Source: a virus | IMG/VR virus record: IMGVR_UViG_3300044609_000868 | Span: 1-57,405 of that record | Reading direction: 5' to 3' (one strand) | DNA: 57,405 nt | Shown: positions 28,665 to 45,267 of the stretch, piece after piece | Layout: each line of letters opens with the position of its first letter | Numbering within the stretch: the first letter of the stretch is position 1 | The notes under the pieces: model-generated | Seen by the model: only the letters and a program-made list of their open reading frames with translations | Told to the model about the DNA's origin: nothing | The model's database searches: none | Position numbers and translations under genes: made by a program

Positions 28665-28946
28665 TTGGTTGCAGGGCAACGCATGGAGCGAGAGGTTTCC
28701 CACGCTGAGATCTACAGAGAGCTTGGTGTGCTCCAAGGCAAGATGGACGCCATCCTGCTGAGCCAGACGCGAGATGATGACGAAAAGAAGAACATTTTCG
28801 ATCGTCTTGGGAAGCTCGAAACACGCATGGCGCAGGTCGTACTTGTAGCTGTCATCGCAAGCCTGGTGCTGCCGCCCTTGGCGTCATTTATGGGCCAGCA
28901 CTTACAGCTCAACCTCAGGCCAACGACTGCCGTCATCAACAGATAG
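28665..28946 (+). CDS. Putative holin-like membrane protein
   Basis: 93 aa from TTG (AGGA five bases upstream); an ATG at 28683 would give 87 aa. An N-terminal coiled coil (EIYRELGVLQGKMDAILLS) is followed by one transmembrane helix (QVVLVAVIASLVLPPLASF) and a short tail. The arrangement, in front of the endolysin, suits a class III holin or holin regulator that permeabilises the inner membrane for lysis. Assignment is by topology and position. Confidence 0.55.
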   Translation: MVAGQRMEREVSHAEIYRELGVLQGKMDAILLSQTRDDDEKKNIFDRLGKLETRMAQVVLVAVIASLVLPPLASFMGQHLQLNLRPTTAVINR

Positions 28947-28947
28947 G

Positions 28948-28957
28948 GCTAGCCTGA
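28948..28957 (+). promoter_or_regulatory. Recurrent GCTANNCTGA element, copy 4
   Basis: GCTAGCCTGA 12 nt before ATG 28970, partly overlapping the AAGGAG ribosome-binding site at 28957-28962. The core TAGCCT fits TANNNT; possible promoter for the last lysis genes. Confidence 0.4.
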
Positions 28958-28969
28958 AGGAGACCAGCC

Positions 28970-29122
28970 ATGCCCGGCAACATGGACCCCGATACCGTGG
29001 CGATCATCGCGATCGTCGTCGCTGCAGCCTCTGAAGCCATTGCGCTCAGCCCGCTGCGCGCCAACAGCATTGTTCAACTGGTGCTGCAGTTTCTGCGCCT
29101 TGCCTTCCCAAAAAAGCGCTGA
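28970..29122 (+). CDS. Small membrane protein, possible second holin
   Basis: 50 aa with a good AAGGAG ribosome-binding site. One hydrophobic helix (TVAIIAIVVAAASEAIALS) is followed by an amphipathic helix (SIVQLVLQFLRLAF) and a basic PKKR tail. It sits directly before the endolysin. Topology and place suggest a holin or antiholin partner of the 28665 gene. Confidence 0.6.
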   Translation: MPGNMDPDTVAIIAIVVAAASEAIALSPLRANSIVQLVLQFLRLAFPKKR

Positions 29123-32033: not shown

Positions 32034-32323
32034 GATTCGCCTCTCGCGACGGCAGTGTCACGTACGACGAGGGCCTCGAGACTGCCTTTGAGCTGTTTCG
32101 CGATGGTCGCATTCAGGATGCGGCCATGATGTTCCTCGTCTACGCCGACCCCGACGCGATTGGCATCGTCGGCGAGAGTGAATACAACGCTCTCGCCGCT
32201 CACTTCAAAGAAATGATGGCGTTTGTGAAGCTCTACGAAATGATCTGCGACGAGCTTGCGCAGCCACTGCTTAGCGAAGACGGGAAGCCGGCGTACAAGG
32301 TTGGTCCTGCTGCCGAGGGGTAG
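32030..32323 (+). CDS. Hypothetical protein coupled to thyX
   Basis: 97 aa, helical (YDEGLETAFELFRDGRIQDA and FKEMMAFVKLYEMICDEL). ATGA overlap with thyX. Its 3' end runs convergently over the last 53 bases of the integrase gene. No function recognised. Confidence 0.65.
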   Translation: MRFASRDGSVTYDEGLETAFELFRDGRIQDAAMMFLVYADPDAIGIVGESEYNALAAHFKEMMAFVKLYEMICDELAQPLLSEDGKPAYKVGPAAEG

Positions 32324-33419
32324 CGACAGCTTCGCCGATGCGCGCCACGGCAGCCTTAGCGGCGTCGTCGATCAGGAAGGCGTAGCGCGCCGTCGTCTGC
32401 GGTGATGTGTGCCCCAGGAGCTGACCGATCTGGCTGAGCGACACGCCCACCGACAGTCCGATCGAGGCGTAGGAGCGGCGCAGATCATGCACCAGCAGGC
32501 CCTGAATGCCGGCCAGCTGCAGCAGCTCCTGCCAGAGCTTCTGGTAGCCCACCAAATGCCCGCCGTTGTCGCCTGCGATAATCCATTCAGTGTTTGAGTT
32601 GCGTCTCAGCTCTCTCAAGATGCGAATCGCTGCAGGAGGAAGATGCACTACGCGATCTTTGCCGGTGCTGTTGCCGGTCTTGTGAGCATCAATCGGGATC
32701 ACCAGCAGACCTGCTTCCTCGTTGATCCAGTCCCATCGGCCGCGGCATATCTCACCTACTCGGCAGCCAGTCAGCAACAGCAGCCGTATCAACTGGGCAA
32801 ATCGCCAGCGCAGTGGCGTGGTGGCTATCGCGTCCAATGCGGCCTCCAGCCGCTGCCGCTCTTCGCCTGACAGGTAACGCTGCCGCTTGCGCTCGCCGTT
32901 GCCCGGCACGTTGGCGCAGGGGTTGGTGGGGCATAGGCCCCAGAGGATGGCGAGGTTGAATGCCTTGCGCAGAACGGCCAGCGTCCGGTTGGCCTGGGTG
33001 CGGGCGATGCCGTTGATCAGTTGCATCACCTGCGCGCTGGTGACGGCCTGGAGCTTGGTGGTGCCGAGCTTTGGCAGCAGGTGCGTCCGCCAGATGCTTT
33101 CGTAGCCGGCCCGGGTGGTTGCTCGCAGCTTGACGTAGTGGGCCGCTTGCAGTCGCTGGTACAGATCGGCCACGGTTGGCCCGCTGCGCAGCTCCTGTCG
33201 CTTGCTGGTGGGTGCCTCGCCACGAGCGACGGCTGCAAGCAGCTTGTAGGCCTCCTCTCGGGCCAGCGTGCGGCTGATGATGCCCACCCGGCCGATCTTG
33301 TGATGCTGCTGCTTGCCGCTGGGCTCGCGGTAGCGCAGGTACCAAGTTTCAACACCGCTGGGCAGCCTCAGGATGCCAAGGCCGGTAACTTTTGAGTCTG
33401 CAATCCATTCGCGCGCCAT
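32271..33419 (-). CDS. int: Tyrosine integrase
   Basis: 382 aa from the ATG at 33419, preceded by GGAG. The open frame continues upstream through the tRNA fragment (its translation contains the familiar CPRTDSNRRPTDYKS artefact), so the longer reading is rejected. Catalytic residues are all present: Arg220 in TGCRVGEI, His311 and Arg314 in HDLRRSYAS, His337 in LGHTS and Tyr346 in TTARYAF. The N-terminal DUF4102-like arm-binding part and the SAM-like core-binding part are visible. It catalyses integration into the tRNA-Thr gene at attP, 120 bp upstream of its start. Confidence 0.95.
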   Translation of the reverse strand: MAREWIADSKVTGLGILRLPSGVETWYLRYREPSGKQQHHKIGRVGIISRTLAREEAYKLLAAVARGEAPTSKRQELRSGPTVADLYQRLQAAHYVKLRATTRAGYESIWRTHLLPKLGTTKLQAVTSAQVMQLINGIARTQANRTLAVLRKAFNLAILWGLCPTNPCANVPGNGERKRQRYLSGEERQRLEAALDAIATTPLRWRFAQLIRLLLLTGCRVGEICRGRWDWINEEAGLLVIPIDAHKTGNSTGKDRVVHLPPAAIRILRELRRNSNTEWIIAGDNGGHLVGYQKLWQELLQLAGIQGLLVHDLRRSYASIGLSVGVSLSQIGQLLGHTSPQTTARYAFLIDDAAKAAVARIGEAVATPRQQDQPCTPASRLR

Positions 33420-33460
33420 TCGCGCAGATCTCCGTGATTTCGCGCGACTCTGCGCGAACG
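33405..33460. promoter_or_regulatory. Arm-type integrase sites, left group (WTTCGCGC repeats)
   Basis: CCATTCGCGC occurs at 33405 and again 11 bp later at 33416. GATTTCGCGC lies at 33436 and an inverted copy (CGTTCGCGCA on the minus strand) at 33451-33460. The first two overlap the integrase start codon. Spacing of one helical turn and the position beside attP fit arm-type binding sites of a lambda-like integrase, which could also let integrase repress its own gene. Confidence 0.7.
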
Positions 33461-33540
33461 AGCGGTAAAGCGCAAGAGCGGATAGATGTAATGAATCAAG
33501 ACTTTGGGTAAGTTGCGGTAAAAAGCGTGAGATACTAAAA

Positions 33541-33590
33541 GTTGATTTGTAATCAGTAGGTCGGCGGTTCGAGTCCGTCCGGGGGCACCA
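33541..33590 (+). tRNA. attP core: 3' part of a tRNA-Thr(UGU) gene (partial)
   Basis: Fifty bases match tRNA positions 27-76: anticodon arm with TTTGTAA loop (anticodon TGT), variable loop AGGTC, T arm GGCGG-TTCGAGT-CCGTC, acceptor strand CGGGGGC, discriminator A and CCA. The D arm and 5' acceptor strand are missing, so this is not a working tRNA. It is the identity segment that rebuilds the host tRNA gene after integration. The core probably starts near 33544. Confidence 0.92.
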
Positions 33591-34468: not shown

Positions 34469-34639
34469 TCACTGCGCCAGCAGGTGATCAAGATAGAGCT
34501 CTGCCTGCCACATATCGCTCGAATACCGGCAGTAGCCGTGAGCGCAGCTGCGGTAGTAAATCTCGAATCCCGGCCGATCGAGCGTCTCGATGTAGCCGCC
34601 GTCGCGGTCGGTGCGGCTGATCACTTCCGGGTCGGACAT
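34469..34639 (-). CDS. Hypothetical protein, last gene of the leftward operon
   Basis: 56 aa from ATG 34639, overlapping the upstream gene by 19 nt. Contains DRPGFEIYYRSCAHGYCRYS and a helical end. A start at 34711 would add 24 residues that only mirror the upstream Cys-motif region, so the shorter form is preferred. Function unknown. Confidence 0.5.
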   Translation of the reverse strand: MSDPEVISRTDRDGGYIETLDRPGFEIYYRSCAHGYCRYSSDMWQAELYLDHLLAQ

Positions 34640-34959
34640 GCCTTGAAGACCGAGCACTGCGCGGCGAATCTCCCACCAGTCTGCCGGGCCTCCGGCCAGC
34701 CGAACCCGCATTGTGCGTTAATCCCCTCCCAGTGGATGCACTGCCAGCACATCGGGCGATCGTCGACACGCTTGCTCAGCTTGCGCTTGAGGTCGGAGTA
34801 GATCCGCTCAGCCCTGAAGATCGCCTCTTCGGCGTTGCTGGTCTCAAGACTGGCTTTTATCTGCTGTTCTGGGCTGCCACCAAGCTTGATGCGGACATGC
34901 CAGACGGAGCGCTCAAGGTTGAGCACCATCCGCCCGGCATGAAACCGCATCATCCCCAT
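34621..34959 (-). CDS. Small Cys-motif protein (C..C.HW family)
   Basis: 112 aa. N-terminal part (RSVWHVRIKLGGSPEQQ) plus a helix (AEEAIFRAERIYSDLKRKL), then MCWQCIHWEGINAQCGFG and RFAAQCSVF. The pattern C-x2-C-x-HW ... C-x-x-GF/GW ... FAA-C-x-x-F/Y recurs at the C-terminus of the 38756-39238 product, so four cysteines probably bind a metal. Overlaps the dNMP kinase gene by 10 nt. Confidence 0.65.
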   Translation of the reverse strand: MGMMRFHAGRMVLNLERSVWHVRIKLGGSPEQQIKASLETSNAEEAIFRAERIYSDLKRKLSKRVDDRPMCWQCIHWEGINAQCGFGWPEARQTGGRFAAQCSVFKACPTRK

Positions 34960-35516
34960 AAGGCTGCGTCGATCTTGCGACGGAATTCTTCAAGGTTGCC
35001 ATCATTTTGAATGACGACATCAAATCCGCCCCAGTCGTCGAGCGCACCTTCCGAAATGTGGTCGGTGTCGCGTACAGCTGATGTCCGTACAACCTTCCAC
35101 ATCTGACCGCCAGCCCCCTTGACCGCCTGCGCCTCGTTGAGGAAGCGCACGTCGTCGGTCACCACCGTGTCAAACGTCTTGATCCGAGCTTCCCAGCACC
35201 GGATCCAAATGTCGTCAGCGATGCACTGGCGACCGAACTCGGTGCCGAGGCGCTGCAGCAGCTCGCGAGCCGTGCAGCCGATCTCTGGCACGTGGCGATG
35301 CTTGTCGACCCACACCAGCTTCAGGGCTTCATCCTCCCGGTAGCCAAAGCTGCCGAGAAAGGTCACCGCCATCCGCTTCAGTGGCTCGGCAAACGACACC
35401 GGCTGGAAGCCTTGGTGAACGAGCACAGTGGCGGCATGCGTCTTGCCGGATTGCGGTGCCGGGCTGTAGATCCCGATCAGCTGCTGCGGCCGGTCGCGGT
35501 CGTAGTCGTTGTTCAT
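34950..35516 (-). CDS. Deoxynucleoside monophosphate kinase-like protein
   Basis: 188 aa. P-loop SPAPQSGKTHAA at residues about 18-29, LQRLGTEFGRQCIADDIWIR in the middle and VVTDDVRFLNEAQAV later are typical of phage dNMP kinases (T4 gp1 type), which phosphorylate dNMPs for phage DNA synthesis. It complements dcd and thyX at the other side of the integrase. ATGA overlap with the upstream gene. Confidence 0.8.
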   Translation of the reverse strand: MNNDYDRDRPQQLIGIYSPAPQSGKTHAATVLVHQGFQPVSFAEPLKRMAVTFLGSFGYREDEALKLVWVDKHRHVPEIGCTARELLQRLGTEFGRQCIADDIWIRCWEARIKTFDTVVTDDVRFLNEAQAVKGAGGQMWKVVRTSAVRDTDHISEGALDDWGGFDVVIQNDGNLEEFRRKIDAALWG

Positions 35517-35725
35517 CGATCGAATGCTTCTGGGTCAACTTGGCGCGCATGCCACCAAGCGTCACGGGCCTGCTCAGCACCGCGCTGGGCGAATTCCTGC
35601 CAAAGGCCGGTGTAGGTCATGCGCAACGGGTGGCCGGCGGGCAGGTTGTCGCGACCACTCTGTTCGTAGAGGTAGTCGAGATAGTCGGCCTTCTTCTGTT
35701 CTTCGCGGGGGTGGCAGTCAAACAT
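35513..35725 (-). CDS. Small conserved cyanobacterial/phage-type protein
   Basis: 70 aa from ATG 35725, which overlaps the upstream stop by 8 nt (longer starts at 35749 and 35809 exist). Sequence FDCHPREEQKKADYLDYLYE with GTYTGLW-like MTYTGLWQEF, then ARDAWWHARQ. I have a recollection of related small proteins in cyanobacterial phages, function unknown. Confidence 0.6.
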   Translation of the reverse strand: MFDCHPREEQKKADYLDYLYEQSGRDNLPAGHPLRMTYTGLWQEFAQRGAEQARDAWWHARQVDPEAFDR

Positions 35726-35915
35726 CGTGTCCAGCAAGCGAGCGTGCATAGGCCATCGCCTCCGAGTGTGTCTCGAAGGTTGGCCCCCAGGTAACAATGG
35801 CGCCGTCAAAGCACCACGGCTGGAACGCTAACCCCAGTCCGCGATCAACAGGATGAGCGCCGTAACAGGGATGGTTCTGGCCTCTCCAGGGTCCTTGCTC
35901 AGAGTGAATCACCAT
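35718..35915 (-). CDS. Hypothetical small protein
   Basis: 65 aa, Trp/His-rich (GPWRGQNHPCYGAHP, WGPTFETHSEAMAYARSL). Start overlaps the preceding gene by 7 nt and its end overlaps the next. Function unknown. Confidence 0.55.
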   Translation of the reverse strand: MVIHSEQGPWRGQNHPCYGAHPVDRGLGLAFQPWCFDGAIVTWGPTFETHSEAMAYARSLAGHDV

Positions 35916-36067
35916 TGTCCCTCTAGGCCAAGCACTTCAACGTGGCATGTCGGGTGCAATTCGGTCGCCATCCAATGGGCGTTGGTGGCGGAGACGGCAT
36001 AAGTCAGCCAGATCCACGTCGAGCCATCTTGGCGAGTGAGGCGGATCCGGTAGTAGCCAACGGTCAT
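35909..36067 (-). CDS. Hypothetical small protein
   Basis: 52 aa from ATG 36067 in an ATGA overlap with the microprotein upstream (TTG 36091 would add 8 residues). Beta-alpha pattern: YYRIRLTRQDGSTWIWLTYAV then ATNAHWMATEL, like small nucleic-acid or peptide binders. Function unknown. Confidence 0.55.
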   Translation of the reverse strand: MTVGYYRIRLTRQDGSTWIWLTYAVSATNAHWMATELHPTCHVEVLGLEGQW

Positions 36068-36153
36068 GGCAGGATCTTTTTGCAGAGACAAATGATCGCG
36101 ATGCAGATCAGCCAGTAGGCACCGGCGAGGTAGAGAGCTGTTGAAAGAGTCAC
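36064..36153 (-). CDS. 29-residue single-span membrane microprotein
   Basis: 29 aa from GTG 36153. Almost all of it is one transmembrane helix (LYLAGAYWLICIAIICL) with a CKKILP tail. It overlaps both neighbours by exactly 4 nt (GTGA at the start, ATGA at the end), which is good evidence for translation despite the length. Confidence 0.6.
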   Translation of the reverse strand: MTLSTALYLAGAYWLICIAIICLCKKILP

Positions 36154-36329
36154 CACAGATGCCGGTTTGCCCAGCTGATGAGTTCGGATCGGATGAATGG
36201 TCCCTGCGGTTCTGCTCCCGGCAGCTGCAGGGTGTAGGTCGGCATGTCGCCAGGTTGGCGCTCGAGCTGGCTGCCGCGGCGCCTGACGGCGTAGGCGATC
36301 AGCTTGATGGTGCGGAAGCGGGTGGGCAT
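36150..36329 (-). CDS. Hypothetical small basic protein
   Basis: 59 aa from ATG 36329, one base after the upstream stop. RFRTIKLIAYAVRRRGSQLE then PTYTLQLPGAEPQGPFIRSE and a Trp-containing C-terminus. Function unknown. Confidence 0.55.
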   Translation of the reverse strand: MPTRFRTIKLIAYAVRRRGSQLERQPGDMPTYTLQLPGAEPQGPFIRSELISWANRHLW

Positions 36330-36330
36330 G

Positions 36331-36618
36331 TCAGTGTTGGGCTCCCCAGCGGGCAAGGACATTGCGGGCGAACACGATCAGCGCGGCGTTGGCCGGTGAG
36401 CAGATCTCCTCGAGCTTGATCTTGTCCGGGTGGCAGGCGGCGGCCAGCCTGATATGGGTGATGAGACCGGAGGCGATGGCTTCCTCAAAGAGTTGGGCGT
36501 CGCTCGGAGATGTGGCAAGCGGCCGCCACTCTGCGCCGTCAAACACCTCTATTTCGGTGAGCCAGTCAAAGCCGGGCCGCTTGACGGTACGCATCTCACC
36601 GATGATGGGCTCAGTCAT
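36331..36618 (-). CDS. Hypothetical protein
   Basis: 95 aa from ATG 36618, overlapping the upstream stop by 8 nt (a longer reading to 36684 is not needed). N-terminal beta part (IGEMRTVKRPGFDW, EIEVFDGAEWRPL), C-terminal helices (IKLEEICSPANAALIVFARNVL). Function unknown. Confidence 0.55.
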   Translation of the reverse strand: MTEPIIGEMRTVKRPGFDWLTEIEVFDGAEWRPLATSPSDAQLFEEAIASGLITHIRLAAACHPDKIKLEEICSPANAALIVFARNVLARWGAQH

Positions 36619-36940
36619 CGGGCGGAGCCTCCAGAGCGCGGCGGATGATGCCGTCAGGGTCGATGTAGTCGTTGCACCGATCAAGCGCCTGCTCCTTTAA
36701 GGACAGCGGCTTCGGACGCATTGCCTCCCGCAAGGCATTACCAGGAGGCGCAATAGTCAGACTTTGAGTAAACAGCGAGTGAGCGTCAAGCCATTTTGCA
36801 TCCTGTTCTAACTGTTGATCAGCACCGGCGGCGTAAGCGCGAGCAAGAGCCTCGCTCGTACTAATTTCATACTGATCAATGCCTAATTCAAGTTGTTCTA
36901 TTAAGTCACTTAATGCAGTAACTGAGTGCTGGTTAGTCAA
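36611..36940 (-). CDS. RPKPxSLKE-family small protein, copy 1
   Basis: 109 aa from TTG 36940 (GGAG seven bases upstream, overlapping the previous stop). Helical; ends with RPKPLSLKEQALDRCNDY and IIRRALEAPPDD. The 37473-37808 product shares RPKPPSLKERAL, a central GADQ-E-WL/V segment and the IRRALEA end, so the two are diverged paralogues. This copy is AT-richer than its neighbours. Function unknown. Confidence 0.55.
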   Translation of the reverse strand: MTNQHSVTALSDLIEQLELGIDQYEISTSEALARAYAAGADQQLEQDAKWLDAHSLFTQSLTIAPPGNALREAMRPKPLSLKEQALDRCNDYIDPDGIIRRALEAPPDD

Positions 36941-37295
36941 TGAGCTGCTCCATTTGTTTTTCCATGTGATCTGCCCATGCCAGCAAATCACTGGCGCGGA
37001 CAAGTTGCTCGCCGGTATCAGCCACCCGCCAGTGGACTGATGCAGTGTCACGAAGGGCTTGATCGATCACCTTGCGAACAAGAAGGATTGTTGCTCGACG
37101 ATGAAGCTGATGAGTTACCGTGTCAGTGACAGAGGCCGGTTCCCTGTCATCGGACACAGCCGGTCCATCTGGCTCAGCTAAGGCGGCATGGGCAATGTCA
37201 GTCCACTGCTGAAACACAACTTTGTAGCGGTGCGGCCAGTCGGCTTTTTTAAGGCAGTCGGTTAATTCGACGCACAGTGCTCGGAAGTCGGTCAT
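36933..37295 (-). CDS. Hypothetical protein
   Basis: 120 aa. N-terminus DFRALCVELTDCLKKADW, a Trp-containing helix (FQQWTDIAHAALAEPDGPA) and a C-terminal helix (LLAWADHMEKQMEQL). 4-nt overlap upstream. No recognised domain. Confidence 0.55.
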   Translation of the reverse strand: MTDFRALCVELTDCLKKADWPHRYKVVFQQWTDIAHAALAEPDGPAVSDDREPASVTDTVTHQLHRRATILLVRKVIDQALRDTASVHWRVADTGEQLVRASDLLAWADHMEKQMEQLID

Positions 37296-37480
37296 CGGTT
37301 AGTGCTGCGTCGGAGGTTAAGCGGCGGCGGTCCGCTTGGGCGGTTGGTGTTCTCGTGGTTGATGCTGCGGCGCCAGTCGGGGTCTTGGTTGCGAGGCTTG
37401 GTCAAGACCCAACAAATGCGAGCGCCGAAGACGATGCCCGTGGCGAATCCCACGGCCCATGACATCACGGGGTCAGTCAT
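37292..37480 (-). CDS. Small membrane protein
   Basis: 62 aa from ATG 37480 (8-nt overlap with the upstream gene). One N-terminal transmembrane helix (MSWAVGFATGIVFGARICWVL), then a basic, Asn/Pro-rich cytoplasmic-type tail. One of several single-span proteins in this operon. Confidence 0.55.
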   Translation of the reverse strand: MTDPVMSWAVGFATGIVFGARICWVLTKPRNQDPDWRRSINHENTNRPSGPPPLNLRRSTNR

Positions 37481-37808
37481 CGAGCGCCTCCAGTGCGCGG
37501 CGGATGACTGCCATGGCCGTCTGATCATCCGTGCCAGCCTCAACGGCAGCCCAAGCCTGCAAGGCTCGCTCCTTCAAGCTCGGCGGCTTGGGGCGGCGGA
37601 GGCGGCGTAGTTCAGCGCCCCACTCTCTGCCGTGCCCGATCTCACGCTCAACCCACTCACAGCACGCCTCCAGCTCTTGATCAGCACCCCAGCGGGCAAA
37701 GCGCGTGGCGATGAACTGCTCATAAGTCATTTCCGCCGGGGTGGATGGATTGCTGCGCAGAAAAGCCTGCACTAGCTGCGGCGGCGGAGTGATCAGGTGG
37801 TCAGTCAC
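37473..37808 (-). CDS. RPKPxSLKE-family small protein, copy 2
   Basis: 111 aa. YEQFIATRFARWGADQELEA, then CCEWVEREIG, then RRPKPPSLKERALQAW and AVIRRALEALDD. Paralogue of the 36611 product (see shared motifs there). ATGA overlap with the alpha-CTD-like gene upstream. Function unknown. Confidence 0.6.
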   Translation of the reverse strand: MTDHLITPPPQLVQAFLRSNPSTPAEMTYEQFIATRFARWGADQELEACCEWVEREIGHGREWGAELRRLRRPKPPSLKERALQAWAAVEAGTDDQTAMAVIRRALEALDD

Positions 37809-38194
37809 GCCTCCACCTCCGACGGCATCAACATCTGCCGGATCCGGGCAGCGGTAAACGGCCCGCGGGAGATCCGATTCCAGATCACCTTCATGGCCAC
37901 CACGGCCTCCTGGTCAGCCATGCAGCTGCCGCATTCGTCCAACGCCCTGCTGACGGCCTCATGCGTCTCGCGGTAGAGCACCGGGTCGGTCTGCATCAGT
38001 GCATCGCGCCAGGTGGCAACCTCGCTCAGCGCCTGCATGCCGAAATTCTTCAGCTGCATCAGCTCTGCCGAGCTGGCCATCATGACCTGCTCAGCAGTGA
38101 ACAGGCCACCACGAAGCAGTGCGTTCTGCGTGCGGACTGACATGTACTTGGCAGTCTCCGGCACCAGCCGGAAGTCGTCTTCAGTTGGGTGCAT
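37805..38194 (-). CDS. Protein with RNA polymerase alpha-CTD-like helix-hairpin-helix
   Basis: 129 aa. Residues about 17-58 (MSVRTQNALLRGGLFTAEQV then SSAELMQLKNFGMQALSEV) closely follow the helix-hairpin-helix pattern of the RNA polymerase alpha C-terminal domain, which reads LSVRxxNxLxRxxIxTxxDL...LLxIxNFGxKSxxEV. In host RNAP this domain binds UP elements and activators. A free phage copy might compete for or redirect these contacts. The C-terminal half (ECGSCMADQEAVVAMKVIWN) is unknown. Confidence 0.65.
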   Translation of the reverse strand: MHPTEDDFRLVPETAKYMSVRTQNALLRGGLFTAEQVMMASSAELMQLKNFGMQALSEVATWRDALMQTDPVLYRETHEAVSRALDECGSCMADQEAVVAMKVIWNRISRGPFTAARIRQMLMPSEVEA

Positions 38195-38402
38195 TGATCG
38201 AATTCAGGTGATCGATGAGGTCTTGGCGGGTGGGCCACATCGGGCGGCCGTCGATCTTGCGCTCCATCTCGGCAACGGCGCGATGGATCCCTTTCAGGAA
38301 CCAAAACCGGCTGATCGCGGCCACCTTTGGGGCCTGGCTGAGCAGCTGGTCCCAGATCCTGTCCGGGCAGCTGTCCCAGTCAATGTCATCACGCACGGTC
38401 AT
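38181..38402 (-). CDS. Hypothetical protein
   Basis: 73 aa from ATG 38402; ATG 38432 (83 aa) is an alternative. DDIDWDSCPDRIWDQLLSQ, a helix FWFLKGIHRAVAEMERKIDG and PTRQDLIDHLNS. Overlaps both neighbours by 14 nt. Function unknown. Confidence 0.5.
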   Translation of the reverse strand: MTVRDDIDWDSCPDRIWDQLLSQAPKVAAISRFWFLKGIHRAVAEMERKIDGRPMWPTRQDLIDHLNSINAPN

Positions 38403-38577
38403 CCACGGGCTCAGTGTTTCGTTCAGTGTCATCGCCCGGATCGAGCCATTCGATGAGGTTCCAGAAGGGGCCGTATTCGGCAAATGCTTTGGATTTGGCA
38501 TCAGCGAAGCTTGTGGCGGTGACGAAGTCGTAGACGTTCGACTGAGGGATGGTGAAGTGGTAGTGGCGTTCAGTCAT
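38389..38577 (-). CDS. Hypothetical small protein
   Basis: 62 aa in an ATGA overlap with the upstream gene. TERHYHFTIPQSNVYDFVTA, then SFADAKSKAFAEYG and an acidic tail. The pattern recalls small beta-alpha proteins; function unknown. Confidence 0.55.
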   Translation of the reverse strand: MTERHYHFTIPQSNVYDFVTATSFADAKSKAFAEYGPFWNLIEWLDPGDDTERNTEPVDDRA

Positions 38578-38696
38578 TCGCAAACAGGGAACGATCCAGC
38601 AGCAGGGTGATGGGCGATCTTGCAGCTGGTGGCATGGTCGTGAACGATCAGCGCGATCGTGGCGACGGGGAGCAAGAACAGGAGAAGGCGCTTCAT
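38574..38696 (-). CDS. 40-residue membrane or secreted microprotein
   Basis: 40 aa from ATG 38696. KR at the N-terminus, a hydrophobic core (LLLFLLPVATIALIV), then a short His/Cys-containing tail. It could be a signal peptide with a tiny mature product or a single-span membrane protein. ATGA overlap downstream. Confidence 0.5.
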   Translation of the reverse strand: MKRLLLFLLPVATIALIVHDHATSCKIAHHPAAGSFPVCE

Positions 38697-38755
38697 TTGA
38701 AGTGGGTTGGACAGGTCAATGATGCCGGGCGGCCCGGCGCAAAGCGTGAGGGTTG

Positions 38756-39238
38756 TCACACTTCGTAAAAACTGCAGTCAGCCGCGAAGCTGGTGCCCTC
38801 GTCGAGCGGGTCCGGGAAGCCCAGTTCGCAGCCGACACCGCCCCAGTGCTGGCATTCGGTGCAATCGCGCCACTGCGGCCGCCGCTTCAAGCTCGGGAAC
38901 ACCTTCGTCCAGGTCTTGCCAGCTCGGATCTGCTGAATCGCCTGGCGCGACACACCGAGCTCGGCGGCCAGAGCAACGTCCGAGGTTTGCCGATCGGTCA
39001 GCGCGCGGCGGACGTGCGCCAGATCAAGCTTCTTTCGTCTTGGCTTGCCAGGCCCGCGTCGCCGCCGGCGCTTCTTTCTGTCAGGCCCGAACACAGTCCA
39101 GCGCTCACCGCAGTCACTGCACTCCCACCGGCGACGGATCAAGCCATCGGCGCGGGTACGTGTTTCACGGACAAAACGGTTGTTGTGCTCACAGACAGGC
39201 GTGTCTAGCGTTGATGAATCATCGCTGTTGAACTCCAT
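38756..39238 (-). CDS. DNA-binding protein with Zn-finger, HTH and C..C.HW motif
   Basis: 160 aa. Zn-ribbon-like Cys/His pairs near the start (VCEH...WECSDCGERW), then a strongly basic linker (RKKRRRRRGPGKPRRKK), a helix-turn-helix (DVALAAELGVSRQAIQQIRAG) and a C-terminal CTECQHWGGVGCELGFP...FAADCSFYEV module like that of the 34621 product. A transcription or DNA-maintenance role is likely. Its start codon shares the palindrome CATG (39236-39239) with a gene on the other strand. Confidence 0.65.
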   Translation of the reverse strand: MEFNSDDSSTLDTPVCEHNNRFVRETRTRADGLIRRRWECSDCGERWTVFGPDRKKRRRRRGPGKPRRKKLDLAHVRRALTDRQTSDVALAAELGVSRQAIQQIRAGKTWTKVFPSLKRRPQWRDCTECQHWGGVGCELGFPDPLDEGTSFAADCSFYEV

Positions 39239-39431
39239 GACGTTTGGTAAATGGCTTCAAGCTGAAATGACAACGGAAGAAAAGTGGGCAGTAGAGACAG
39301 TTGCGCGCAAAGAAGACGCTCGCACTGCAATGCTTTACCGCCTGTGCTGCCAGCAGCAATTTCAGCTTCAGCAGGCGGTCAATGAGATCGCCCGCTTAGA
39401 GCTGATGCTGATGGATCACTCAAAGAGCTGA
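39237..39431 (+). CDS. Hypothetical small helical protein, only rightward gene in the leftward operon
   Basis: 64 aa: FGKWLQAEMTTEEKWAVETV, DARTAMLYRLCCQQQFQLQQ and a helical end. Sequence is protein-like and AT-richer than the flanks. Its ATG shares CATG with the divergent gene on the minus strand, and it ends 15 bp inside the next leftward gene. No ribosome-binding site is evident. Confidence 0.5.
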   Translation: MTFGKWLQAEMTTEEKWAVETVARKEDARTAMLYRLCCQQQFQLQQAVNEIARLELMLMDHSKS

Positions 39432-39724
39432 ACGGCCTGCTCGTAGGTGGGTGCCTGGACGTGCCGGCTGAGCACCGTGCCATCTGGCTGCGGCATCTCC
39501 ACGACAAAGGTCGGCAGCTCGTCGCGCCAGAGGCGCATCAGCTCGTTGACTTCATCCACCAGCGTTCCAGCTTGCTCATAGGTCCAGCCGCGGCGGGCGA
39601 CGTTGAAATGGGCCAGTGTCTCGATGCGATCACACCAGCGGATCAGCGTTACGGCATCCGGCGTCACTGGCGGCGACAGTTGCTCGCGATAGATCTCGCG
39701 CAGGCGGGTTTCGGGGTAGGTCAT
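39416..39724 (-). CDS. Hypothetical protein
   Basis: 102 aa, mostly helical (LIRWCDRIETLAHFNVARRG, LVDEVNELMRLWRDEL) with a beta C-terminus (VVEMPQPDGTVLSRHVQAPT). 4-nt overlap with the upstream gene. Function unknown. Confidence 0.55.
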   Translation of the reverse strand: MTYPETRLREIYREQLSPPVTPDAVTLIRWCDRIETLAHFNVARRGWTYEQAGTLVDEVNELMRLWRDELPTFVVEMPQPDGTVLSRHVQAPTYEQAVQLFE

Positions 39725-39927
39725 TTGCGGTTCAGGTAGTAGGTCCAGTCCTTCTTCAGGCCGCCGAATTCGTTCAGATCACCAACGGCAGTCTTCTTGC
39801 CGCACACATCACAGCAGCGCAGCGTGTAGGTGGCAATGTGCGTCGCAGGACCGACGAAGCGCTCGTCGATGTAAAAGCCACCCAGCTTGCGGCCGCAGGG
39901 TTGGCAGAGTTTCTTGGGAGTCTTCAT
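39721..39927 (-). CDS. Small two-CxxC zinc-ribbon-like protein
   Basis: 68 aa from ATG 39927 (ATGA overlap upstream). Two Cys pairs, CQPCGRK and CCDVCGKK, separated by about 30 residues, suggest a zinc ribbon. Possible DNA- or protein-binding adaptor. Confidence 0.6.
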   Translation of the reverse strand: MKTPKKLCQPCGRKLGGFYIDERFVGPATHIATYTLRCCDVCGKKTAVGDLNEFGGLKKDWTYYLNRK

Positions 39928-40067
39928 TGCTTGGCTTGGTTGTAGCCCCACTCTGCAGCCTGGAAGGCGACATGAAATGGGATGGCTTCGGCGTCAATCA
40001 CGCCTTCATGCACCATGTCGACTGCATCTTCGACCCAGTGCTCAATCAGTTCGAGGGGTGGTTCCAT
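39924..40067 (-). CDS. Hypothetical microprotein
   Basis: 47 aa from ATG 40067: acidic helical start (LELIEHWVEDAVDMVHEG), then FHVAFQAAEWGYNQAKQ. A TTG at 40106 in a TTGA overlap with the previous stop would add 13 residues. Function unknown. Confidence 0.5.
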   Translation of the reverse strand: MEPPLELIEHWVEDAVDMVHEGVIDAEAIPFHVAFQAAEWGYNQAKQ

Positions 40068-40102
40068 GGTCAAGGGGTGGGAGTGGGTCTGCCTACTGGG
40101 CT

Positions 40103-40408
40103 TCAAGCACGCAACCTGGCTAGCAGGTCTGCCGTTTTCTCAGCCAGCTTGCAGTAGCTGGTTCCCTCATCGCTGGAAACGATGTGCGGGCAAGTGGAGT
40201 TGGGTTGTTCAATCCAGTTGTCTAAAGCCTGTTGCAAAGCTGTGAATTCTTCCCAGGTCATGGAAAGGGACTGGTGGCCTCGGCTTAGATGAATGTCGAA
40301 GCCTTCACTATTTGTCCATTCTGTGACTTCGAGGAAGTCATCACCCTTTCTATCAATGTTGTAGTTCTTGAGTTCGACAAAGCGGCAGGTGCGCTGAGAT
40401 TCTTTCAT
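40103..40408 (-). CDS. Hypothetical protein
   Basis: 101 aa from ATG 40408, four bases after the upstream stop. FVELKNYNIDRKGDDFLEVT, DIHLSRGHQSLSMTWEEFTA and a C-terminal Cys/His-containing helix. Function unknown. Confidence 0.55.
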   Translation of the reverse strand: MKESQRTCRFVELKNYNIDRKGDDFLEVTEWTNSEGFDIHLSRGHQSLSMTWEEFTALQQALDNWIEQPNSTCPHIVSSDEGTSYCKLAEKTADLLARLRA

Positions 40409-40412
40409 GGCG

Positions 40413-40619
40413 TTACTGGGCTTCAAGTTCATTAGCGATGGCGTCTATGAAGTCCATCGCAGCACGCCAACCAGTGTCGTACTCATCGGTGGTGTTGCCA
40501 GCGGCACCGTGACCTGCAGCAGCACGCAGGGCAGCGATGAGCGCTTGATGCCTAGTGCCTGCCCATTTGGAATCAAAGGCATCTTTGACTGCCTGAGCAG
40601 CAGGTGAAAGTTCACTCAT
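40413..40619 (-). CDS. Small conserved helical protein (LSPAAQAV type)
   Basis: 68 aa. SELSPAAQAVKDAFDSKWA, HQALIAALRAAAGHG and a helical end. The LSPAAQAV...ALRAAA pattern is familiar from cyanobacterial and cyanophage small proteins, function unknown. 8-nt overlap with the upstream gene. Confidence 0.6.
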   Translation of the reverse strand: MSELSPAAQAVKDAFDSKWAGTRHQALIAALRAAAGHGAAGNTTDEYDTGWRAAMDFIDAIANELEAQ

Positions 40620-40800
40620 CGGCGTGCTTCCAGAAACCCTCTGGCTGATGCTTGCGCAGAAACTCCACTAGCAAGCGGTGCGCTTCTCCTGCATCCTCGA
40701 TGAATTGCCCTCGGTAGTGGAAGCCTTCGGCGTCGATGCGGATGACTTCATCGGGAGCAGGGCCTGAGCGAAAGATGATGCTGTTGGTTGGTAGGGTCAT
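40612..40800 (-). CDS. Hypothetical small protein
   Basis: 62 aa. IIFRSGPAPDEVIRIDAEGF, then YRGQFIEDAGEAHRLLVEFL. The pattern is typical of small conserved cyanobacterial-phage proteins. Function unknown. Confidence 0.6.
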   Translation of the reverse strand: MTLPTNSIIFRSGPAPDEVIRIDAEGFHYRGQFIEDAGEAHRLLVEFLRKHQPEGFWKHADE

Positions 40801-40830
40801 CAGGGGAGATCAGTTGATCGGACTACTGGG

Positions 40831-40977
40831 TTAGCGGCGGAAGCGGTTCTGCATATCAATCCAAACCAATAAAGCAAACCGTGTGGCTGCTGAAAGCATG
40901 ACAATAGAGAGTGTCAAAACAAGCGACCAAGCAAGAACAGCGGTGGCAAGTCCTGGTCCGGTAAGTGTTTCAGTCAT
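40831..40977 (-). CDS. 48-residue single-span membrane microprotein
   Basis: 48 aa. A short Thr/Gly-rich N-terminus, one long hydrophobic helix (ATAVLAWSLVLTLSIVML), then FALLVWIDMQNRFRR. Probably an inner-membrane peptide. AT-richer than neighbours. Confidence 0.5.
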   Translation of the reverse strand: MTETLTGPGLATAVLAWSLVLTLSIVMLSAATRFALLVWIDMQNRFRR

Positions 40978-40994
40978 GGCGGTAGTGGGATGGA

Positions 40995-41093
40995 CTAAGA
41001 AGCCGAGCGAATTGCGTGAATAGCAACCGCAAGGCCGAAAGAAATCCACACGAAGTAGATGGCTGCCCAGTACGGAGGGCCGGAGCGGTTCAT
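40995..41093 (-). CDS. 32-residue membrane microprotein
   Basis: 32 aa, starting in an ATGA overlap with the upstream stop. PPYWAAIYFVWISFGLAVAI is one membrane span; the tail is short and basic. Confidence 0.5.
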   Translation of the reverse strand: MNRSGPPYWAAIYFVWISFGLAVAIHAIRSAS

Positions 41094-41317
41094 GCCGCCA
41101 CCTCCACCTCAGCGCCAGGCCAGCGCGCCTGCGCATAACGCACTGCCAGCTTCTGGCTTTCGGCCATCAGCGTGACCTTCATTGGCCGGCTTTTGCCCTG
41201 CCTCACCAATAGCGCCACCGGCTTGGCGCGTTCCGGCTTGGCCGGCCGGCTTACGCCCGGGCCGAAGCTGCCAGCTGGGTGTTCATGCCACTGGAAAGTG
41301 AGTGGTTCGCCTTTCAT
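41090..41317 (-). CDS. Hypothetical small basic protein
   Basis: 75 aa. FQWHEHPAGSFGPGVSRPAK, then PVALLVRQGKSRPMKVTLMA and a helical end (KLAVRYAQARWPGAEVEV). Overlaps its two neighbours by 4 nt each. Function unknown. Confidence 0.55.
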   Translation of the reverse strand: MKGEPLTFQWHEHPAGSFGPGVSRPAKPERAKPVALLVRQGKSRPMKVTLMAESQKLAVRYAQARWPGAEVEVAA

Positions 41318-41451
41318 AATCTTGAGAGTCCAACGATGAGATTGATGAGCTGGATTGCAATGATCGCGATCAAGATCAGCTCGTGACGGCGAAGCATGCG
41401 CTTCACTTCTATCACCTGCCGCAACAGCACCAGTGACTGATTAACGTCCAT
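41314..41451 (-). CDS. 45-residue membrane microprotein
   Basis: 45 aa. An amphipathic helix (QSLVLLRQVIEVKRMLRRH) is followed by one membrane span (LILIAIIAIQLINLIVGL). ATGA overlap at its end with the next gene and 11-nt overlap with the previous one. Confidence 0.55.
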   Translation of the reverse strand: MDVNQSLVLLRQVIEVKRMLRRHELILIAIIAIQLINLIVGLSRL

Positions 41452-41677
41452 CGCTTTTTCGCACATTCGCGACAGCCTTGCGCATGTTGCCCGCTAGCTC
41501 CTCTTGGCCGTCAATCGTGGCCATGTCGGCCGCGGCGAGGATGCCGGCTTCGAAAGCGTCGCGGATCATGCGCTTCTCTATTTCAGTGGGGCGCTTGGCC
41601 CGGCTGAACAGCCACACAACCAGCTGCCCCGCGACCGAGCCGGCAATCGCAGCGCCAAAAATTTCAAGGGGTGTCAT
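41441..41677 (-). CDS. Small membrane-anchored protein
   Basis: 78 aa. Strong AGGAGG ribosome-binding site five bases before ATG 41677. An N-terminal membrane span (IFGAAIAGSVAGQLVVWLF) is followed by a charged helical cytoplasmic part (EIEKRMIRDAFEAGILAAAD). Probably the head of the microprotein sub-operon, because this is the best ribosome-binding site in the region. Confidence 0.6.
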   Translation of the reverse strand: MTPLEIFGAAIAGSVAGQLVVWLFSRAKRPTEIEKRMIRDAFEAGILAAADMATIDGQEELAGNMRKAVANVRKSDGR

Positions 41678-42696: not shown

Positions 42697-43170
42697 CTAG
42701 AACGGGATCGAGTCGTCATAGACAGGTGCAGGCGGCGCCATCTGCTGCTGGAGCGGAGCAGGCGGCATCTGCTGGGGCACCTGGGCGTAGCCCTGGCTGG
42801 CCTGCGCATAGCTGTTCTGCTGCTGCATGGGCGCGGCGGCCGGCTGGTCGTCACCGCGGGACTGCCAGCTCTCCACCGAAGCGTTGCGAATCACAACAGC
42901 CTTCTTCAGCTCGCCGGTCTGCTTGTCGTTCCAGCTTTCCTCTGCCACCTGGCCAGTGACGCAGACACTGGCGCCCTTCTTCAGGTAGTTGGCGACATAC
43001 TCAGCCTGCTTGCCCCAGATCTCCACCTTCACCCAGAAGGCGGGCTGATCTTGGCCCTGCTTCTTGGGCTGGCGGACGGCCAGCGAGAACTTCGCGACCA
43101 TTTGGCCAGACTGCGTGGTCTGAAACTCGGGGTCGCGGCCGAGATTGCCAGTAAGGGTTCCGTTGAACAT
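42697..43170 (-). CDS. ssb: Single-stranded DNA-binding protein
   Basis: 157 aa. OB-fold residues 1-108 (GTLTGNLGRDPEFQTTQSGQ, FSLAVRQPKK, FWVKVEIWGKQAEYV, KGASVCVTGQV), then a Gln/Pro-rich linker and the acidic tip DDSIPF that binds replication partners. It protects single-stranded DNA and acts with the RecT-like annealer encoded upstream in the same operon. Confidence 0.93.
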   Translation of the reverse strand: MFNGTLTGNLGRDPEFQTTQSGQMVAKFSLAVRQPKKQGQDQPAFWVKVEIWGKQAEYVANYLKKGASVCVTGQVAEESWNDKQTGELKKAVVIRNASVESWQSRGDDQPAAAPMQQQNSYAQASQGYAQVPQQMPPAPLQQQMAPPAPVYDDSIPF

Positions 43171-43172
43171 GA

Positions 43173-43424
43173 TCAGTTCGCTTTGGGTTGGCAGATGATG
43201 AAGCAGCCCAGGCCGTCGCGACGCTTGCGCACCGAATAACGGCGGCTCAGCTCACGGCGGCTCAGATTGCCCACCACCTGGGTGATGGTGCCGGGCTTGT
43301 ACTCGTCGAATCCGACTTCGACGGCCTCGCCAGGCTCGAGATCAAGAATCTCGCTTCGCAGCGGTGCAGTCTTCGACTGACGGCCAGCCTTGGCGAGTGC
43401 TTCTTCAGCGGTGATGCGGTTCAT
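43173..43424 (-). CDS. Hypothetical small protein of the recombination operon
   Basis: 83 aa. EEALAKAGRQSKTAPLRSEI, then EPGEAVEVGFDEYKPGTITQ and a basic segment (RRELSRRYSVRKRRDG) likely to touch nucleic acid. Sits between SSB and the excisionase-like gene. Function unknown. Confidence 0.6.
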   Translation of the reverse strand: MNRITAEEALAKAGRQSKTAPLRSEILDLEPGEAVEVGFDEYKPGTITQVVGNLSRRELSRRYSVRKRRDGLGCFIICQPKAN

Positions 43425-43639
43425 TTGTCCTGTCGTGGGTTGTTGGGAAAGCCGCGCATGTTGCGCTGCTCGAATTGAACAATCTCATGGATTGGATAGA
43501 GCACTCGACCGCCGGCTTTGAACCAGCGCGGACCACGTTGCTGCGAACGCCAGTTGTCCAGCGTGCTGAGACTGACGACATTGCGCCAGCGCTCAGCGAG
43601 CTCACGTGGGGTCAAGTACGTCTCACCAGACTGCATCAT
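43421..43639 (-). CDS. Excisionase/AlpA-like helix-turn-helix protein
   Basis: 72 aa. YLTPRELAERWRNVVSLSTL, then DNWRSQQRGPRWFKAGGRVL and YPIHEIVQFEQRN are the MerR-type winged helix of the AlpA/HTH_17 family, which includes recombination directionality factors. It is the best candidate for the excisionase matching the integrase, although it lies in the recombination operon and not beside int. Overlaps RecT by 17 nt. Confidence 0.7.
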   Translation of the reverse strand: MMQSGETYLTPRELAERWRNVVSLSTLDNWRSQQRGPRWFKAGGRVLYPIHEIVQFEQRNMRGFPNNPRQDK

Positions 43640-44285
43640 CTACCACCTCCTCAGATGCCTTTATTTCCTGGATTTTGCCGTTCAGGTCTTCAACGATCGA
43701 CGGCTGTTCGGTTACTTGCACTTCTTCAATTTCAACGACTTCTTCTTGAGTCTTCATGCCAACCAGGAATTCAGGCACATAGAGGCGTCCCCAAAACGCA
43801 GCAGCACGATACCGGATCATGAGATCCGGCATTGTCTGCCACTTAGACCCTGATTTCGTCGCCCATCCTTCGCGCTTGGCCATAGCCATGGTCACAGCAG
43901 GACCGCGCAGCTCCTTCCCTGTTGCGATCTCGGTCGCGTAGGCAAAGCAGCTCAAAGAATCACCTTCTCCGCTGATTGTGTAATCCAGCGGAGTGAATCT
44001 CCCGCACCCATTGATCATCGCGATGATGAACTGGGACGACCAGCTAGGGCGGCCATGAATAATGTGCAAGTTTTGCATTACCTGCAGGGGCGATAAATTC
44101 ATTCGCCCGGCAATCTCCATTGCTACCAGCGTGTTTGCCAGTCCTTGTTGTCCTTGGTATTCCTTGGGCACTAAAGCGCTGCTCGCCAAAGCTTTCGCAA
44201 TGCGCTGAGCGTTCTCGAACTGTCGAATCCCAGTAAAGACACCTTCCGACTGGGTTACCGCAAGGGAAGTTGACTGTTCAGGCAT
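43623..44285 (-). CDS. RecT-like single-strand annealing protein
   Basis: 220 aa. RIAKALASSALVPKEYQGQQ, then GLANTLVAMEIAGRMNLSPL and NLHIIHGRPSWSSQFIIAMI are characteristic of the RecT/Redbeta superfamily. It anneals complementary single strands during phage recombination, with the exonuclease upstream and SSB downstream. The acidic C-terminus (EEVVEIEEVQVTEQPS) may be regulatory. Confidence 0.88.
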   Translation of the reverse strand: MPEQSTSLAVTQSEGVFTGIRQFENAQRIAKALASSALVPKEYQGQQGLANTLVAMEIAGRMNLSPLQVMQNLHIIHGRPSWSSQFIIAMINGCGRFTPLDYTISGEGDSLSCFAYATEIATGKELRGPAVTMAMAKREGWATKSGSKWQTMPDLMIRYRAAAFWGRLYVPEFLVGMKTQEEVVEIEEVQVTEQPSIVEDLNGKIQEIKASEEVVDDAVW

Positions 44286-44287
44286 AA

Positions 44288-45109
44288 TCAGAAGCCTTCA
44301 ATTTCAGTGATGGGTTGGTCAGAATCGTCTTGCAGCCATGTCGGAACTGCTAGCGATTGGATTTCGTCGCCGTAGCCGGGCCACTGATTCGCAGCACGAC
44401 ATGTGGCGAGTTGACGCAGGTCTTCCTGCGCCTCCCGCAGGCCGCGTTCGAGCAGTTCCGCCGGCGTAGCGTACACCGCCACTGCATAGGGCGGCTTCTT
44501 CTCGACAGCCAAAAACAAGAACTGCTCAGCCTGCAGTGACTGACTGTAGAACGCAGCCTGCACGTGGTAGCGATACTTCATCACCGAGCGCAGGAACCCA
44601 CGAGGGCTTGCGTCGTCGGTGGTCTTCACGTCAGCGATCAGCCGGCGATCGTCGCTGTGCCAGTCAGGCCGGCACTTGCAGTTCTCGCCAGTGGTCTCAT
44701 CAGTCCAGAAGTAAGACTGCTCGCACTTGCCCGGCAGCCGCAGGATCGTCCGCGCCGCAGGGTGGCGATGCACCGCCTGGGCCATCGCCTCGATGTGAGC
44801 AGCGTCCTCGGCCTTCAGCACGGTCTTGCCGCCGGCTTCGTCCTCGAAATCAGCCCACCGCAGCTTGCCCTCCTTGGTCCGGCGGTCGATGCCTTCCGGC
44901 GCCACGATGTACTCGTCGTTGAACAGGTGAGGTTCCAGCACCCGCGTGTGCAGCGCTGAACCCAGCACCATGGCCGGGGTCGGTGGCTCGATGATCCGGT
45001 CTGGATTCAGGTACCGATTCCAGAAGTGCAGCGGTGAACGCCGGATCTGGTCGAGACCTGATTTCGAGACCTCTGGCCGAGCGTGATACTCCGCGTTGGT
45101 CAGTCCCAT
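44288..45109 (-). CDS. RecE-like exonuclease (PD-(D/E)XK)
   Basis: 273 aa from ATG 45109; GTG 45193 would add 28 residues, but the shorter start (MGLTNAEYHARPEVSKSGLD) matches the usual family start. SPLHFWNRYLNP, LGSALHTRVLEP, then CKCRPDW / RLIADVKTTDDASP contain the PD-(D/E)XK residues (Asp, Asp-x-Lys) and the QAAFYSQ helix completes the exonuclease VIII-type nuclease. It resects double-strand ends for RecT. Confidence 0.85.
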   Translation of the reverse strand: MGLTNAEYHARPEVSKSGLDQIRRSPLHFWNRYLNPDRIIEPPTPAMVLGSALHTRVLEPHLFNDEYIVAPEGIDRRTKEGKLRWADFEDEAGGKTVLKAEDAAHIEAMAQAVHRHPAARTILRLPGKCEQSYFWTDETTGENCKCRPDWHSDDRRLIADVKTTDDASPRGFLRSVMKYRYHVQAAFYSQSLQAEQFLFLAVEKKPPYAVAVYATPAELLERGLREAQEDLRQLATCRAANQWPGYGDEIQSLAVPTWLQDDSDQPITEIEGF

Positions 45110-45267
45110 AGGCTTAACTTGCGTCTGTGGATCGAAGCTTACCGCTGTTTCCCGCACCTTCACGCCTCCCTGTCGCACTTCTTCACACTTCACGGGAATT
45201 CCCGGCTAAGTGCTTATTATTGCTGTGTTTTTTCACTTATCCCTTGCGGACCACTTAGGTCAAGACG
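45110..45267. promoter_or_regulatory. Divergent early control region with operator-like repeats
   Basis: Space between the leftward recombination operon and the rightward helicase operon. TAAGTG (45207) and CACTTA (45234) form an inverted pair, with a further CACTTA at 45252 next to the helicase start. A 12-bp perfect palindrome centred on GAATTC spans 45193-45204. An AT-rich TATTAT (45215-45220) could be a -10 box. This is the most likely site of the lysis-lysogeny switch or early promoters. Confidence 0.55.

Follow-up and report, generated by a model that had tools for sequence, protein, structure and literature searches.

Are the many tiny genes packed beside the integrase of an uncultured virus genuine, and if so, what would they do together? 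The locus in question is a leftward run of small genes, here called the operon, at 41677 to 34469 of the virus record IMGVR_UViG_3300044609_000868, a single record whose full 57,405 bases we analyzed as one window. Temperate cyanophages have received little study, and most small genes in their early regions lack annotation. A first-pass annotation had proposed about 25 tiny overlapping genes here, forming a dense battery of membrane peptides that could remodel the host envelope, block superinfection, or serve lysogeny, and of which it knew no description. Sequence comparison indicates that the tiny genes are genuine. We consider it probable that they constitute an early leftward accessory operon of a temperate cyanobacterial siphovirus family, devoted to host takeover and to modulating the choice between lysis and lysogeny, with a fixed core of genes and exchangeable slots between them.

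From the open reading frame (ORF) listing and a rebuilt gene chain, we obtained about 28 small ORFs running from 41677 to 34469; unless a plus sign is given, the window intervals below lie on the minus strand. Each encodes at most 129 aa, with the exceptions of g15 (160 aa) and the deoxynucleoside monophosphate (dNMP) kinase g30 (188 aa), and neighbors mostly overlap by 4 to 14 nt. The proposed layout holds in part: short gaps replace the overlaps at g07/g08, g08/g09, g11/g12, and g15/g16, and one gene, gA, runs on the opposite strand.

Scans with the dNMP kinase, g03, g19, and g31 recovered about 24 IMG/VR contigs carrying the operon. Mapping the window genes onto them revealed a constant core, consisting of g04, g06, g12 to g19, and g26 to g32 plus gA, and variable slots located after g06 (slot A), between g16 and g17, between g19 and g26 (slot D), and between g26 and g27. 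This layout is present across 13 operons. In contig 021963 the first slot is empty and g12 directly follows g06, and the accessory families g10, g20/g23, and g22 turn up in differing slots. Most core genes occur in 10 to 18 non-redundant relatives, with changes chiefly at third positions and a ratio of nonsynonymous to synonymous change (pN/pS, pooled over comparisons against non-redundant relatives) of 0.17 to 0.6. The stop/start overlaps, whose conservation the first-pass annotation had named as a check, are kept: CGAATGA joins the g16 stop to the g17 start in 18/18 members, and the g26 stop reads CCATGA in 12 of 16. We also looked for small frames broken beside intact larger neighbors, which that annotation would have counted against the genes, and saw none: in the relatives g26, g16, g04, and g05 are intact wherever they occur, and their losses are clean.

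Seven membrane candidates lie where they had been placed, namely g04 (41441), g05 (41314), g07 (40995), g08 (40831), g16 (38574), g21 (37292), and g26 (36064), and their best 19-residue hydropathy values range from 1.6 to 2.6. Three of them, g04, g16, and g26, are by these comparisons core genes under purifying selection encoding predicted membrane peptides. The smallest, g26 (36064..36153), is a 29-aa putative membrane microprotein with a pN/pS of 0.30 (15 relatives). Of 16 non-redundant members, 15 have this length and one has 26 residues, and the peptide ends in KK or RK followed by [IL]LP. A scan with the g26 alignment reached 30 contigs, and gene order differs in several of the 13 outside the first set that we inspected: g26 stands at the operon end after g32, directly before the opposite-strand HNH gene, in L093-L095 and L110, and adjoins a g29-like gene in L096-L099, L103, and L105. 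Because the stop is TAG or TAA at these differing gene orders, the KK[IL]LP end appears to be kept for the peptide rather than for an overlapping start. A 26-aa g26 at 12219 of L030 lies after g32 rather than before g27, from which we infer that it has changed its place inside the operon.

The 40-aa g16 (38574..38696) has an N-terminal predicted membrane span, a conserved H21, and a pN/pS of 0.41 (15 relatives). All 18 non-redundant sequences are 36 to 40 residues long and end in P[VI]CE, and the short tail bears two cysteines in most members. We start g16 at the ATG at 38696, giving 40 rather than 61 aa, because the extra N-terminus is unconserved. Chaining by codon usage failed to pick up g16 in the window despite its conservation; the codon score thus overlooks some membrane peptides and was not relied on by itself. 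The 78-aa g04 (41441..41677), which has an AGGAGG site, joins an N-terminal predicted span to a conserved soluble tail and has a pN/pS of 0.48 over 11 non-redundant relatives. We considered whether g26 or g16 might be a small photosystem subunit or belong to another known small family, and dropped the idea when Pfam, PHROG, and NCBIfam gave nothing worth keeping.

The remaining candidates fared unevenly. The single-span g05 (41314..41451; 45 aa) is present in a subset of relatives (five, at 71-74% or 36% identity; pN/pS 0.36 on four). Within the operon family g21 (37292-37480) has no relative, and it appears to be a travelling accessory: relatives in 13 other viral contigs (L059-L071), 14 contigs in all with the window, have differing membrane spans followed by an invariant motif, NHENTNRPSGPPP, within a nearly invariant tail, RDxDPDWRRSxNHENTNRPSGPPPLxxRRS. 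Among phage isolates, the motif gave only a weak match to gp39 of Synechococcus phage S-CRM01 (E 0.3; not counted), a 48-aa protein encoded between the portal and protease genes that ends in a weakly similar YENTNKPTTPRPLKLKRSK. The 32-aa g07 (40995..41093) in slot A, whose start overlaps the g06 stop, is uncertain: its codon score is 3.9, and no counterpart turned up in the operon relatives, some of which carry unrelated single-span ORFs after g06. The 48-aa g08 (40831..40977; codon score −9.6) gave no relative in a dedicated scan and is probably not a gene. The supposed battery is thus reduced to three core members, one in a subset, and one that travels, with g07 and g08 unsupported. Nor is the membrane share of the operon exceptional among the small genes of this phage, at about 7/27 inside versus 2/20 outside (Fisher P = 0.27), although arbitrary ORFs of 25-130 aa elsewhere yield 22/447. 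As a side observation, two otherwise divergent relatives, L048 and L034, share a nearly identical 22-residue membrane ORF, MI[ST][MI][VI]VAFIAVFLIGLFVGSLR, followed by the same 48-aa ORF.

Two core neighbors suggest that the operon acts on transcription. The 129-aa g19 (37805..38194), present in every relative that covers its position, resembles a stand-alone RNA polymerase alpha C-terminal domain (alpha-CTD; PF03118, 29.8 bits vs. a cut-off of 23.8). A 17-member profile matched alpha subunits in the PDB over residues 18-61 with E down to 1.7e-6, and the best matches to the predicted structure are alpha-CTDs, with Z up to 9.8 and 1.3 Å over 57 residues. RAD51-type helix-hairpin-helix domains reach Z 8-9 against the same model; since they score nearly as high, the sequence match carries the assignment. 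At the positions of alpha-CTD residues that contact UP elements, the family conserves R21, N24, and G52, which correspond to E. coli R265 (nearly invariant in the family) and to N268 and G296 (invariant), while the equivalent of K298 is usually Q. The alpha subunit joins RNA polymerase through its N-terminal domain; g19 has the CTD-like part without that domain and, unlike the bacterial alpha-CTD, a C-terminal part of its own (residues 70-129). A 44-residue stretch of g19 also matches gp68 of Mycobacterium phage Zenteno07 (E 4e-3). Sub-threshold NCBIfam matches to unrelated long profiles (12-14 bits vs. cut-offs of 600-720) were discarded as chance.

The other neighbor, g15 (38756..39238), encodes a 160-aa protein with a predicted NrdR-type zinc ribbon (PF22811, E 8.5e-8, above the cut-off), a helix-turn-helix (HTH_3, weak), and a cysteine motif also found in g31. 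The two C-terminal motifs, CxxCxHW...C...GFP/GWP...C, are about 30% identical, suggesting a zinc-binding module duplicated within one operon. In g31 (34621..34959; 112 aa), a core gene with 18 relatives at 63-92%, the zinc-type motif reads CWQCIHW...C.

The genomic setting fits the early, lysogeny-related placement that the first-pass annotation had proposed. Upstream of the operon and in the same direction lie genes for a DUF3799 PDDEXK nuclease, a RecT-like protein, an HTH_17 protein, and SSB (42697..45193). At its other end lie a tyrosine integrase (32271..33446; PF00589, E 1.8e-18) and, between integrase and operon, an attP-like 3′ half of tRNA-Thr(TGT) at 33540..33590 (+). This half, read by eye and probably the attachment core, is too short for ARAGORN, and a tRNA scan and Rfam over the region returned no match. 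The integrase and the adjacent tRNA half together indicate a temperate phage. Relatives have halves of other tRNAs close to the corresponding place, so the integration site appears to vary within the family. More than 20 IMG/VR contigs share this framework, and the gene order in the relatives is invariant: a helicase, then exo-RecT-SSB-g03...g32 in one direction, an opposite HNH gene, int, and opposite thyX-dcd.

The window also encodes a gpA-type terminase, a lysozyme cassette, dCTP deaminase, and ThyX, and its portal protein is 51-54% identical to those of Synechococcus phages S-LBS1, S-CBS3, and S-CBS1. By sequence it is an uncultured temperate siphovirus related to S-LBS1 and S-CBS1/3, probably infecting Synechococcus-type cyanobacteria. 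S-LBS1 is described as a freshwater cyanosiphovirus with an integrase (PMC6157547). Like the window, it has leftward genes for SSB, an annealing protein, VRR-NUC, and a helicase, followed by a few small genes, with three annotated at that place versus 28 in the window. Among phage records, a DNA-level search with the operon found no match, nor did searches with gA, g26, or g31, and g16 drew a single match at chance level. A genome scan with the g31 alignment likewise found none. A genome scan with gA matched a sole contig, L072 (JAURHQ010000068.1), from a metagenome-assembled genome that GTDB places in ‘Gammaproteobacteria’; it holds the operon with gene identities as for contig 021963, and is therefore probably a mis-binned cyanophage.

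The operon is not purely leftward, as the conserved gA (39237..39431, +) sits inside it on the opposite strand. Between g14 and g15, at 39238-39416, the leftward frames are broken; gA fills this interval, its start codon overlapping that of g15 and its 3′ end overlapping g14. It encodes a 64-aa protein, predicted to form two helices (predicted local distance difference test score 89), and few genes of the region are as constrained, with 16 relatives at 64-89% and a pN/pS of 0.19. The start is ATG in 16/16 relatives where it was found, and gA remains on the opposite strand in distant lineages at 43% identity.

In its overall plan the operon recalls the lambda exo-xis region of the PL operon (orf60a, orf63, orf61, orf73, ea22, ea8.5), another set of small same-direction genes between exo/bet and int of a temperate siphovirus. 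Extra copies of that region impair lysogenization and change prophage induction (PMC3824215), and Orf73, which binds RNA polymerase, increases phage yield (PMC9239242). Each region has a product linked to transcription, Orf73 in lambda and the alpha-CTD-like g19 in the window. They differ in gene number (about 28 vs. about 8), in the HNH gene and attP that separate the window operon from int, in the opposite-strand gene inside it, and in its core membrane peptides; when 12 proteins of the lambda PL region were checked, only ea10 cleared the hydropathy cut-off applied to the window. Since no gene family was found in common, we do not class the operon as an exo-xis member; it occupies the corresponding position in the genome plan and, by analogy, likely plays the same role. 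The first-pass remark that no description was known is fair for the protein families and not for the kind of operon. Phage small proteins acting on host expression or lifestyle choice are likewise a recognized theme (PMC11323111).

Based on this evidence, we propose the following mechanism. Transcription would begin at a promoter near 45.2 kb, and translation would be coupled through the overlapping stop and start codons. Its products would turn the host to the needs of the phage and influence whether lysis or lysogeny follows. At promoters, g19 would be an alpha-CTD-like partner of the DNA or of RNA polymerase, g15 and gA would serve as regulators, and g30 would supply nucleotide synthesis. 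MgtR, KdpF, and AcrZ are small regulatory membrane peptides of 29-49 residues with a single span that act by binding a larger membrane protein, and the constant single-span g26 and g16, which resemble them in size and span, may bind and retune host membrane proteins in the same manner.

Gene content, conservation, selection, position, and the alpha-CTD relationship support the accessory-operon reading directly. The conserved stop/start overlaps, the fixed length and ends of g26 and g16, and a scan that gave no convincing leftward terminator within the operon also speak for it. Several points weigh against it. The timing, the coupling, the functions of all the membrane candidates, and the targets of the membrane peptides are what we infer rather than observe, and the host assignment comes from a single source, the portal similarity of 51-54% to Synechococcus phages. 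A sigma-70 scan gave no strong promoter near the proposed start, with fewer sites than in shuffles; as the promoter and terminator scans were at or below shuffle level, they were not used as promoter evidence. The gA gene breaks the single-transcript reading over its own stretch. Pfam scans of the operon proteins found no Orf60a/Orf63/Orf73/Ea22-type families.

A tentative and rather doubtful proposal is that cyanobacterial phages broadly require g26 as a host-takeover factor, working beside a g19 that redirects host RNA polymerase and the opposite-strand regulator gA. It is unlikely that g04, g16, g26, and g21 instead act from the lysogen as superinfection-exclusion or immunity factors, sitting in the inner membrane and keeping the DNA of related phages from entering. 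That single-span proteins are encoded close to a temperate phage's integrase would suit such a role, and the rotating membrane accessories of the slots, with the variable span and constant motif of g21, resemble diversification against changing partners. The sequence of g26, however, is nearly constant rather than diversifying, and g26 also occurs in stretches without an integrase match (L093-L095, L110; these contigs are fragments). The place of the operon after the recombination genes points to early expression in the lytic cycle, and no match to a defense or exclusion family was found in Pfam, PHROGs, PADLOC, or NCBIfam, which cover such short proteins poorly.

We regard a lysis function of the membrane ORFs, as holin, antiholin, or spanin, as very improbable: small single-span proteins and the short g16 tail with its two cysteines would allow it, but the operon lies with the replication genes on the strand opposite the lysis cassette, where two small hydrophobic genes, likely holin candidates, stand at 28683-29122 (+) directly before the lysozyme/C39-peptidase gene at 29129. 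A lysis role was rejected for the operon ORFs, which are not located with the endolysin gene. Least credible of all, most of the tiny ORFs could have arisen from the frame statistics of GC-rich phage DNA, with only the larger genes translated, which is true of g08 (no relatives, negative codon score) and possibly of g07, and arbitrary ORFs of 25-130 aa elsewhere do give some membrane-like frames (22/447), but for the core this is already refuted on sequence grounds, as even the 29- and 40-aa genes are of fixed length and under purifying selection in many relatives.

The accessory operon is completed by further core genes and by slot contents. In the first part are the soluble core gene g06 (41090..41317; 75 aa; 13 relatives at 56-83%, pN/pS 0.35); the slot A accessory cassette g09-g11 (40103..40800; 62, 68, and 101 aa), with g09 in two relatives, the g10 family in seven, and g11 in none; and the soluble core genes g12-g14 (39416..40067; 47, 68, and 102 aa; 10-16 relatives, pN/pS 0.17-0.42). 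Farther along, the core gene g17 (38389..38577; 62 aa; 17 relatives at 69-87%) matches PHROG 22131, where no function is assigned, and g18 (38181..38402; 73 aa), also core, has an alternative start at 38432 and a pN/pS of 0.24 over 13 relatives using this longer start. Slot D holds the accessory genes g20-g25 (36150..37808), including g21, with g20 and g23 forming a paralogous family. The small soluble core genes g27-g29 (35513..36067; 13-18 relatives, pN/pS 0.24-0.42) lead to the kinase g30 (34950..35516; PF21448, E 2.5e-12; PHROG 139, E 3e-41). The final core gene, g32 (34469..34711; 18 relatives), may start downstream, and its first 91 nt overlap g31, which lowers its pS.

A dense early accessory operon is known as a kind; new here are the g26, g16, gA, and g04 families, the alpha-CTD-like phage protein g19, and the arrangement in slots. 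The new families, of 29, 40, 64, and 78 aa, are under clear selection and are small enough to be synthesized or expressed singly. Together with a phage alpha-CTD-like protein and an explicit map of core versus slots, they would turn the ‘dark’ small genes of these temperate phages into candidates that can be tested for roles in host shut-off, the lysogeny choice, and membrane targeting.

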